Positions 11,327 through 14,957 of a stretch of DNA of 14,957 bases are shown here, piece by piece. Origin of the DNA: Candidatus Latescibacterota bacterium (lineage in GTDB: Bacteria; JAAXHH01; JACQVL01); contig JACQVL010000018.1 of the NCBI GenBank assembly GCA_016209865.1, forward strand, positions 1-14,957. Direction: 5' to 3'. Each line of letters opens with the position of its first letter. Within the stretch, counting starts at the first letter, position 1. The translations under genes were made by a program, and so were the position numbers. The notes beneath the pieces are model-generated. The model saw nothing but the letters and a program-made list of their open reading frames with translations, made no database searches and was not told the DNA's origin.

Positions 11327-13228
11327 TCACTTCAGCATTGTCATCCGGCGGGTCTGACTGAACCCGGTGCTGGTCGTCAGCCGGTACAGGTAGACGCCGC
11401 TGGCCACCGGCTGGCCGTGGGCATTCCGGCCATCCCACGTCGCTCCATACCGGCCTGGTGCTTTAGGCTCATCCACCAAGCGAACCACTTCTTGACCCAG
11501 CAGGTTGAAGACAACCAGCATCACGTGCGCCTGCTGTGGCACCTCGTAGGCGATCTGGGTCGTCGGGTTGAACGGGTTGGGGCGGTTCGCCTTTAGCGCA
11601 AACGCCGTCGGCAGAGCCTCCGCCACCACCGGCTTCGCCGCCGCATTCTTGTGAATCACGATGCTCCCGCCCTCCAGCGCTGTCGTCGGCTCCGCATCGT
11701 CTCCCGCGCCTGACTGATTGTCGTACACCATCCCTCCCGGCCCCTGAATCTTGATTCGGAACTTGTCCACGCCGCCTCCACCAGACACCTGCCCATCCGT
11801 CGCACTCACCTGGAAGGTATAACTCCCACTCCCGTTGATCGTCCCCGATCCCTTGAATTTGGCCTGCGCGCCCGCGACCACCAGCCATTCGTACTGAGTG
11901 CTCTTGAAGGTCAAGTCCCCCGCTTTGAACTGAAATTGCGTATTGCCCGACGGGATCGTGGCCCCGGGCAGGTATTTGGACACGAACCCGACGGTGGCTT
12001 TGCCCGTGAGGGTGGGGTTGGCCGGGTAGGCCCCGGGCGGGGAGGTGAACCAGCCGCCGCCGGTCACAAAGCCGGCGCTCGGGTCGTAGATGACGACAAA
12101 CTGGAACGCGGCCTCGCCGGCCCCGCCGTCATCATCGGTTACCGTGAGCTTGACCGTGTAGACTCCCGCAGTCGTATACGCATGGGTGCCGCTCACGGCT
12201 CCTGAACCATTGGTTTCGGTGACCGTGCCTGCTGAGGTCGTGCCATCGCCCCAGCTCCATTCGGCCGTGTGGGTATCCGGCGTGCCGGGGTCGGAGAAGG
12301 ACGCGCTGGCGGTGATAGGCGTATTCACGCTGATGGGATCGATCGGAGCGGTGATCGCGCCCACCGTCGGGGCCACATTCTGCACGGTCACCGCGGTCTG
12401 GGCTGTGGTCGAGACGTTGCACCGGTCGGTGACTCGGACGGTGATGGTGCGGGTGCTCGGCCCGTCCAGGCCGACCGCCGAGAAGGCTACGCTCTGGCCG
12501 GGCGTCTCGAATGAGCCGTTGTGGTCCAGGTCCCAGGTGAAGGTCACAGGATGGCCGTCCGGGTCACTGCCGGTCGCGGCGACGGTCACGGTGCCTCCTT
12601 CATCCACACTATACGGCCCGCCCGCGTTGGCGATGGGCGGCTGGTTGACCACCTGGACGGTCCGGGTGGCGATCGCCTGATTGCTATGGGAATCGGTGAC
12701 GGTATACGTCCGGGTATAGGTCCCCGGCGTTTGGGTGTCCACATTACCAGTGATCACGATGGCGGCGGTGAGATCCCCATCACAGGCATCTGTCGCGGTC
12801 GCGCCCGGTTCCACATAGGGGGTCGGGCATTCCAGAGTCAGGGGATTGGCCCCGTTCAGCGTAATAGTCGGTGGGGTCGTATCTTGCACGATGATGCAGA
12901 CTTGATCGGAGGCAGTACCTCCTTTGCCATCATCGACGGTAAGGGTGACGATGGTTGTTCCCAGGGGGAACGTAGCCGTAGGAGTCGCGCTCGCAGGATT
13001 ATCAAAGGTGATCCCTGGTGCTGACCAGGCGTAGGTCAACGGATCACCATCAGGGTCGTAAGAGCCTGTGCCGTTCATAGTGACGGACGCACCGGATGGG
13101 GAAGTGCATTCAACCGTTTGGTTAGGTCCAGCAGCGGCTATGGGAGGGCGGTTCTCTGTACGACAAATTTTGACGGTTGAACACCCAACGTTATCACCAG
13201 CAAAGTCATCAATGAACAGTAAATAAAC
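11327..13228 (-). pseudogene. Secreted PKD/HYR-type repeat protein with T9SS type A sorting domain, 5' end lost at the IS
   Basis: 633 residues remain in frame up to the IS border. The frame stays open to a TAA at 13289-13291 inside the IS, without a start codon or signal peptide. An ATG at 13078 falls inside the first domain (SGASVT-M-NGTGSYDPDGD) and is not a true start. Domains in order: PKD-like (about 28-115, from PPIAAAGPNQTVEC), DUF5011/HYR-like (120-195), PKD (198-285), PKD (290-380, WSWGDGTTS...VTDDDGG), and a VTGGGWFTSPPGAY domain like those called post-COAP-1 (about 385-525). The C-terminal sorting domain carries NRPNPFNPTTQIAYEVP, VFNLLGQEV and GVYLYRL. Such proteins are exported and attached or released by the type IX system. 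The upstream half is missing; see the IS entry. Confidence 0.85.
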
Positions 13229-13245
13229 CTGTTGCGCGATAAAGG

Positions 13246-13384
13246 GGTGTTGTCCCTCAGTTGACTTGATGGGCTTGTTCAGGGCGGATTACCACTATAT
13301 ATGGGCCATAACCAAATATTGATCCCAACATGTAGTATGCCAATCCCATCGGTTTACCTATCAAGGCAGCTGAGGGACATTACC
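13246..13384. mobile_element. 139-bp MITE-like element nested in the left end of the IS
   Basis: The left end begins GGTGTTGTCCCTCAGTTGAC (13246-13273 is the full arm). The right end, on the other strand, begins GGTAATGTCCCTCAGCTGCC (13384-13357). The arms match at 23 of 28 positions. An 8-bp direct repeat, GATAAAGG, flanks it exactly (13238-13245 and 13385-13392). The AT-rich centre (about 13285-13350) has no coding potential. GGT-ends and 8-bp duplications occur in several IS families, so the mobilising family is not assigned. Confidence 0.8.
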
Positions 13385-13428
13385 GATAAAGGGGGTCCGG
13401 GTAAATTAGTCGCCGAGGAGGACTCGCC

Positions 13429-14430
13429 ATGACCCTCTACGAGAAACTCAGCCGGAAGCCGAAACAATTTTTGGCGTGTACCGGGATGCCCCTCCACCTG
13501 TTTGAGGAATTGCTTCCCCAATTGGCAGACGCGTATCACCACCAGGAGGCCCAGCGAAAACAACACGTGGTCCGCACCGGCCAGCCGCGCCACCGCCGAC
13601 CCGGTGGGGGCGGCCAATTTGCCAACGATGTGCCGAATCGCTTACTGATGTTGCTGCTCTACTATCGCCTCTATCTGACCCAAGAGTTCATGACCTTGTT
13701 GTTTCAGGCTGGTCATAAGAGTGTCATCTGTCGCGCGATTCACCAGATGCGCCCCGTCTTCGAGGCCGTGCTCCCGACCCCGGAGCGGGCCCGGCGCCGG
13801 ATCCTGGCGCTGGCCAAGAAAGAGCAGGAACGCCGCAAACGGATCGGCAGCCTCGACGAGTTTCGGGACACCTATCCGGAACTGACCTTCATCATCGATG
13901 GCACGGAACAACCCAAGCGCAAACCCCAAGACGCCGAGAAGCGCCGGTCCCACTACTCTGGCAAACGGAAGCGGCATACCCGCAAGCAATTGGTCACCAC
14001 GACGCCTTCCGGCATTATCGTGGACCAGAGTCCCTCCGTCGCTGGGCGGGTCCATGACTTCGAGGTGTTCAAGGCCGATCACGCCGCCCGGGGTGTCCTC
14101 CACGAGTTTACAGACTACCGGGTCAGTCTCTATGGCGACAGCGGCTTTCAGGGCATGGCCGACTTGGGGTTACCCGTCGAGGTCCGGCTGATGGCCCGGG
14201 CTCGGCGGAATCATCCCTTAACGACCGAGCAGCAGCAACTCAATCGGCTCCGGAGCCACACGCGCGTCCGCATTGAGCATACCCTCTCGCGCCGGAAGAA
14301 GTACCGCATCGCCGCCGAGGAGTATCGGAATCGCGATCGCGATTATGATCCGACGATGAATCTTGTGGCTGGCTTGGTGAACCTACGAGCCTATGACCGG
14401 ATCTTCCACCAAACGGGTATTCCGATCTAA
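13429..14430 (+). CDS. IS5-superfamily transposase (DDE_Tnp_4 type)
   Basis: 333 residues, intact. An N-terminal helix-turn-helix region (LLYYRLYLTQEFMTLLFQAGHKSVICRAIHQM, about 77-107) precedes the DDE nuclease core: Asp157 (TFIIDGTEQP), Asp237 (YGDSGFQG) and Glu283 (RVRIEHTLSRRKKYRI), 46 residues apart for the last pair. The basic stretch KRRSHYSGKRKRHTRKQ (171-187) is typical of this group. ATG 13429 has GGAGG 7 nt upstream. No frameshift or stop interrupts it, so the element may still be active. The MITE sits between the left IS end and this gene and may change its promoter. Confidence 0.92.
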   Translation: MTLYEKLSRKPKQFLACTGMPLHLFEELLPQLADAYHHQEAQRKQHVVRTGQPRHRRPGGGGQFANDVPNRLLMLLLYYRLYLTQEFMTLLFQAGHKSVICRAIHQMRPVFEAVLPTPERARRRILALAKKEQERRKRIGSLDEFRDTYPELTFIIDGTEQPKRKPQDAEKRRSHYSGKRKRHTRKQLVTTTPSGIIVDQSPSVAGRVHDFEVFKADHAARGVLHEFTDYRVSLYGDSGFQGMADLGLPVEVRLMARARRNHPLTTEQQQLNRLRSHTRVRIEHTLSRRKKYRIAAEEYRNRDRDYDPTMNLVAGLVNLRAYDRIFHQTGIPI

Positions 14431-14487
14431 TCCGAACACGGCCCGGGAAAACACGTCTCACAGAAAAGACACCTTATCACGCAACAG

Positions 14488-14708
14488 ATTTATTACCATT
14501 AGGCAACAGGAAACCGGGACTTGAGGCATATTCCCAAGTTTTGAGAGAAGCAGGGTTGATCTCCAAACAAGATGGGAAAGATATCATATCATGGGCTGGA
14601 ATACGGAACCATGCGGCTCATGGGGAGTGGAATGAAGTGTCAGACAAGAGTAGAATTTCGCTTATGCTGGAAGGGGTTAATCTATTCATGCGGAAATACT
14701 CCACATAA
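14488..14708 (+). pseudogene. 3' remnant of a HEPN-type (Abi-like) gene, probable integron cassette
   Basis: An in-frame reading of about 73 codons enters from the IS end without a start codon and stops at TAA 14706. Its sequence includes GNRKPGLEAYSQVLREAGLI, then IISWAGIRNHAAHGEWNEV and ends GVNLFMRKYST. The RNHAAH (about residues 44-49) fits the R-x4-6-H motif of HEPN RNases, and the surrounding helix resembles the abortive-infection-type C-terminal domain. The region is clearly less GC-rich than the rest of the window, as expected of an acquired gene. The TAA lies 7 nt before an attC-like site, the normal arrangement of a gene cassette. The 5' part was lost at the IS. Function (toxin or antiphage RNase) is inferred from the motif only. 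Confidence 0.65.
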
Positions 14709-14715
14709 GGTTGCA

Positions 14716-14842
14716 CCCTAACAACGCGTTGCAGGCCGACTGGAACCGCGTCCGGTTTTTGCCGCCCCGTGCTGAGTGTCACCCCTGTGCCTGTCGTCCC
14801 GTCTGCGTTCGCGGTGCCAGCGGCTGAGCGCGGGTGTTAGGC
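14716..14842 (+). other. Integron attC recombination site (candidate)
   Basis: The left simple site CCCTAAC (14716-14722; consensus RYYYAAC with one departure) pairs with the right site GTTAGGC (14836-14842; a perfect GTTRRRY). Inside, CGCG...CAGGCCGAC (14725-14740) is complementary, with bulges, to CAGCGGCTGAGCGCG (14818-14832), as in the L boxes. The left half, TAACAACGCGTTGCAGGCCGA, closely follows known attC sites of the TAACAA...GTT..A.GCCGAC type. At 127 bp it is within the known size range. No integrase gene is in the window. Confidence 0.72.
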
Positions 14843-14957
14843 CGCTCCCCCCCTCGATGCTCCGCTGCGCGGGCGGCGTGGTTGCCCGCCCCCCCGCCGG
14901 GTCTGAGGCCGCCGCTGGCCTGGCCGCGTGGGGTGGGAGTGGGTGCGTCTCCGGGCG
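14843..14957. other. GC-rich sequence after the attC site, no feature recognised
   Basis: 115 bp of very GC-rich sequence with C-runs. An ATG at 14857 opens a frame to the window edge, but it has no ribosome site and a low-complexity product. It could be the start of another cassette or plain flank. Confidence 0.3.

Follow-up and report, generated by a model that had tools for sequence, protein, structure and literature searches.

Gene cassettes found away from an integrase include CALIN, which consist of at least two attC sites within about 4 kb and no intI, and cassettes inserted at attG-type targets, whose consensus is GWT. Integrons are listed in 14 bacterial phyla (PMC8618304). Off-integron insertion of cassettes at attG sites is attributed to Loot et al. 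2024 in the passages of PMC12901181 that cite it, and a HEPN domain with the R-x4-6-H motif has been reported from an integron cassette (PDB 3jrt; Anantharaman et al. 2013, PMC3710099). The combination of HEPN and integron cassette is hence already published and not new. Here we describe such a combination in a Candidatus Latescibacterota genome bin of 3.75 Mb (356 contigs, 83% complete, 1.7% contamination). The window that was analysed is the whole of contig C40, 14,957 nucleotides in length. We are confident that positions 14492-14842 represent the 3' part of an integron cassette, composed of the tail of a gene for a HEPN-fold protein and its own attC. The cassette has been truncated by an insertion sequence (IS), which joins it to an unrelated surface-protein gene.

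The attC site (14716-14842, plus strand) is 127 bp long. It begins with the R'' box CCCTAAC (14716-14722) and ends with the R' box GTTAGGC (14836-14842), following the RYYYAAC-like / GTTRRRY consensus of attC ends except that the first base of CCCTAAC deviates from R. Between the boxes lie complementary L arms, with two unpaired bases on one arm, and a variable terminal part. The spacer between the preceding stop codon and the site, GGTTGCA, covers 14709-14715. In an earlier sequence-only reading of this DNA an RNHAAH-containing C-terminus was noted 7 nt before a 127-bp site with CCCTAAC/GTTAGGC ends and complementary inner arms, and all of these features are present exactly as described. The interval given by that reading was 14488-14842; its opening bases (14488-14491) belong to the IS, whose end is 14491.

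Two covariance models were used to analyze the site. Model R1 was built from four sites of the genome; model R2, a guard against circularity, was derived from five of its sites, that of the window being left out. Applied to the window, R2 found the attC as its sole match (93.1 bits, E 1.6e-22), and the earlier identification as attC passed the covariance check with this leave-one-out model. Over six sites of the genome, 90.1% of 161 pair cells in the arms were standard pairs, compared with 26-44% in a control in which the partners were slid by 1-3 columns. Twelve double-sided changes were counted across the six sites, a number that none of 500 shuffles reached. The bottom strand folds with R and L boxes, and its folding energy has a z of -2.06, with 10 of 200 shuffles being equally good; folding energy by itself is weaker evidence for an attC and would not have decided the matter. 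An Rfam scan of the region matched no family. When R1 was run on the integrase loci of other genomes, sites were found in 9 of 61 loci. All nine lay on the minus strand, upstream of and divergent from intI, where arrays lie. Among 14 relatives from the phylum without intact IntI, one marginal attC match was obtained (E 0.0066). Because of the leave-one-out match, the covariation, the presence of IntI in the genome and the sites beside intI in nine foreign loci, 14716-14842 is, as judged from its sequence, a real integron attC.

A DNA search revealed copies of the arms on other contigs of the same genome (70-93% identity), and R1 identified eight sites on eight contigs across the genome. C306:1859-2800 encodes a full-length IntI, which scores 478 bits with TIGR02249 (cut-off 265). 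Two attC sites lie divergently from this gene, one at 835-708 and another that the contig end cuts; of the two cassette genes on this contig, one specifies a hydrolase of the HAD type and the other a lipoprotein-like product that has no Pfam match. With an intI on C306 and further attC sites on other contigs, the integron that had been suspected from the window is indeed found in this genome. These comparisons show a genome equipped with its own integron, and the attC of the window belongs to the same family as the sites that adjoin IntI on C306. The IntI lies on a separate contig of a draft bin, but the spread of eight sites over eight contigs argues against binning by chance. Half sites were observed as well, one consisting of the left half only (L029:5403-5434 on C53) and one of the right half only (L027:5519-5561, minus strand, on C209); both represent decayed or rearranged cassettes.

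Upstream of the attC lies the C-terminal remnant (approximately 70 aa) of a gene for a HEPN-fold protein (14492-14708, plus strand; reading frame 14496-14708). The frame stops at TAA (14706-14708) and encodes a product ending in IRNHAAHGEWNEVSDKSRISLMLEGVNLFMRKYST. Its motif RNHAAH corresponds to R-x4-H, and its G+C content is 44% compared to 62% in the contig. Only the last third of the gene is left, the 5' part and the first HEPN helices having been removed by the IS. The remnant alone gave sub-threshold HepT-like matches in Pfam and NCBIfam, below every family cut-off. No match to it was found in PADLOC, among phages or, by DNA, among plasmids, and a sequence search of the PDB gave no meaningful match. 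Homologues are approximately 215-250 aa in length and come from a Gloeothece plasmid (annotated as DUF4145), Acinetobacter plasmids (DUF4145 or HEPN) and IMG/VR contigs, and from 5 of the 386 genomes in the phylum to which Calothrix belongs (Cyanobacteriota). Among the intact homologues is the Gloeothece protein WP_012599454. A protein search of plasmids returned DUF4145- or HEPN-annotated proteins only, at 32-41% identity. The R and H of RNxAAH are invariant among the aligned homologues. For the structure model of one homologue (L154, mean pLDDT 84) the top alignments were HEPN chains, with a Z of 14.2 over 117 residues against 2hsb and a Z of 11.8 against HepT of the MntA-HepT pair; Csm6 was likewise aligned, and the Foldseek E-values were weak. 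By way of these homologues the remnant is assigned as the C-terminus of a HEPN-fold protein; the invariant R and H and the modelled fold bear out the HEPN-family C-terminus proposed earlier. The motif and the fold suggest that the product of the intact gene was probably a toxin-like or abortive-infection RNase. The copy in the window is dead, because only the last third of the gene is kept and the first HEPN helices are missing, and a working RNase is not expected from it.

No homologues were found in 50 IntI-bearing genomes, in a search run without a positive control, and among the relatives checked no homologue gene was followed by an attC of this model. The sequence-only reading had named two outcomes that would speak against it. 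The first, lack of a covariance match for the attC, did not occur; the second, homologues without attC downstream, was indeed observed. It shows only that this HEPN gene family is not tied to cassettes.

The IS occupies 13225-14491 (plus strand). It is IS5-like by its transposase domains (DDE_Tnp_4 and HTH_Tnp_4; transposase gene 13429-14430, plus strand) and has the inverted ends AAACCTGTTGCGCG and AAATCTGTTGCGTG. It is present in multiple, near-identical copies, pieces of which terminate contigs C114, C1, C69, C312 and C260. To its left lies a gene for a surface protein with Ig/PKD repeats and a FlgD-Ig C-terminus (11327-13221, minus strand), whose 5' end is cut by the IS. This is the gene that had been labeled T9SS-type, a label that is soft, as FlgD_ig scores above and CHU_C below the cut-off. 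Its frame stays open as far as the IS, at whose opposite end the HEPN gene comes out. The triplet on the left flank of the IS is AAT (13222-13224) and that on the right flank is ATT (14492-14494). AAT also follows three other right ends of the IS; intact left ends are found only on C40 and C114. Alone, a mismatch of one base between 3-bp flanks is weak evidence, but it agrees with both genes being cut. The other half of the surface-protein gene was not found beside the right ends of the IS on C114, C1 and C69, nor was the missing half of the HEPN gene found beside a left end with ATT. A single insertion would split one gene, while here two genes are joined and the flanks differ. Therefore, the two neighbors probably came to lie side by side when one IS copy recombined with another, or else in the assembly.

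In the second case the assembly would have created a chimeric contig C40 at the IS, and in the cell the cassette remnant would not lie next to the surface-protein gene. We rate such a chimera at nearly an even chance: copies of the near-identical IS lie at the ends of other contigs, the flank triplets differ and both genes are cut at the IS, but C40 spans the whole IS, and the same pattern is expected if IS copies have truly recombined. The T9SS-type neighbor is uninformative about the place where the cassette was inserted, because its adjacency is either secondary or an assembly join. Its earlier use as a sign of off-integron insertion is hence abandoned, given that the IS lies between two genes that are both cut and is flanked by AAT on one side and ATT on the other.

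The window contains one attC, and the contig ends 115 bp past the site without an intI. These 115 bp (14843-14957, plus strand) have a G+C content of 82%, compared to 62% for the contig and 44% for the cassette gene. They contain no obvious cassette gene and have no strong second match in the genome; another cassette could begin here, or the stretch could be ordinary chromosomal DNA. The cassette may belong to the main array, the other part of which is on C306, and the IS would then have separated it from its neighbors. The second attC of C306 is interrupted by the contig end, so that the rest of the array lies on a contig not linked to it, and the ordinary GTTAGGC end of the window site is as an array member would have it. 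However, no sequence links C40 to C306, and the G+C-rich stretch without an obvious cassette gene does not favor an array. On balance we hold membership in the array to be a tentative reading, slightly less probable than its opposite.

Several sites of the genome stand single among ordinary genes (on C17, C52, C57, C93, C77 and C115). A complete attC of the same family on C17 (L028:3481-3607) lies alone between an enolase-like and a RecO-like gene and is a candidate off-integron insertion. The sites on C52 (L026:9626-9748) and C57 (L131:1010-1137, minus strand) lie 22-27 nt after the ends of ORFs. Both end in GATAGC and not in GTTRRRY, as an attG-type (GWT) insertion would leave.

The window might likewise hold a single cassette that entered an attG-type chromosomal target off the integron, before the IS struck it. 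The solitary sites, two of them with GATAGC ends, and the attG insertions ascribed to Loot et al. 2024 in the citing text of PMC12901181 give this some plausibility. However, the attC of the window ends in ordinary GTTAGGC, its left neighbor was brought by the IS and its right side is cut by the contig end, and we consider such an origin unlikely. Somewhat more doubtful still is the broader proposal that this genome scatters single cassettes, with the resident IntI inserting them at attG-like GWT sites and not only into one array, and with the window site among them. The alternative to an attC, an inverted repeat that arose by chance or a terminator of transcription, for which a bottom-strand energy just 2 sd below the shuffles and the lack of an Rfam match might speak, is rejected as extremely improbable in view of the R1 sites in nine foreign integrons, the leave-one-out match, the covariation and the genomic IntI.

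For the IS-truncated cassette end with its own attC, the following history can be proposed. By analogy with established integron biology, the bottom strand of the attC would fold into a hairpin, IntI would cut in R' (G/TTAGGC) and the cassette would be captured. The intact cassette gene probably encoded an RNase that acts as a toxin or in abortive infection. The IS at 13225-14491 then cut the HEPN gene off from its N-terminal two thirds, so that no working protein is made now, although recombination of the attC may still take place. This IS also joins the remnant to an unrelated surface-protein gene that is truncated as well, IS copies having recombined or the assembly having linked them.

The phylum is represented by 16 genomes, all of one order. 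A full-length IntI was found in 2 of the 16 and a broken fragment in a third, in keeping with the earlier description of the lineage as poorly sampled. The second IntI-bearing genome (G015) belongs to the same order and another family. It has two integrases (L134 and L135) with 59% and 51% identity to that of the window genome, and no attC was recognized at these two loci by the model of the window. The C306 IntI is at most 70% identical to the IntI of Chloroflexota, Poribacteria and Cyanobacteriota, and in a tree it was placed among sequences of Chloroflexota and Poribacteria, a placement that is unsupported. With the present locus, a phylum of few sequenced species gains an IntI integron and a family of approximately 125-bp attC, and the known cassette cargo is extended by another HEPN RNase gene. 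The locus also illustrates that a multi-copy IS can give a cassette next to an unrelated gene the look of an off-integron insertion. Through the solitary sites of the genome, off-integron insertion would become testable by means of empty sites in relatives.

Compared with HepT of the type VII MntA-HepT system, the fragment stays below the cut-offs of NF047751 (14.9 of 60 bits) and PF01934 (13.3 of 23.5 bits), which is a weak test on a fragment, and its 5' side, where an MNT antitoxin gene might stand, is the IS. CALIN resemble the locus in having attC without intI on the same contig, whereas here one attC is followed by the contig end. As with off-integron insertions at attG sites (Loot et al. 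2024), solitary cassettes occur elsewhere in this genome, and two of them have GAT at the 3' boundary; the window site, in contrast, ends in GTTAGGC. The integron-cassette HEPN family of 3jrt is alike in that a HEPN domain with R-x4-6-H is carried by a cassette. However, it has no sequence match to the window fragment, which is truncated and whose nearest relatives are DUF4145/RiboL-PSP-like HEPN proteins outside integrons. The present integron is like chromosomal integrons with long, genome-specific attC (Vibrio, Xanthomonas, Chloroflexota, Cyanobacteriota) in its TIGR02249 IntI, divergent from the array, and in having one attC family per genome; it differs in that its array is visible on C306 only, with several single sites on other contigs, and in belonging to a small and little-sampled phylum.
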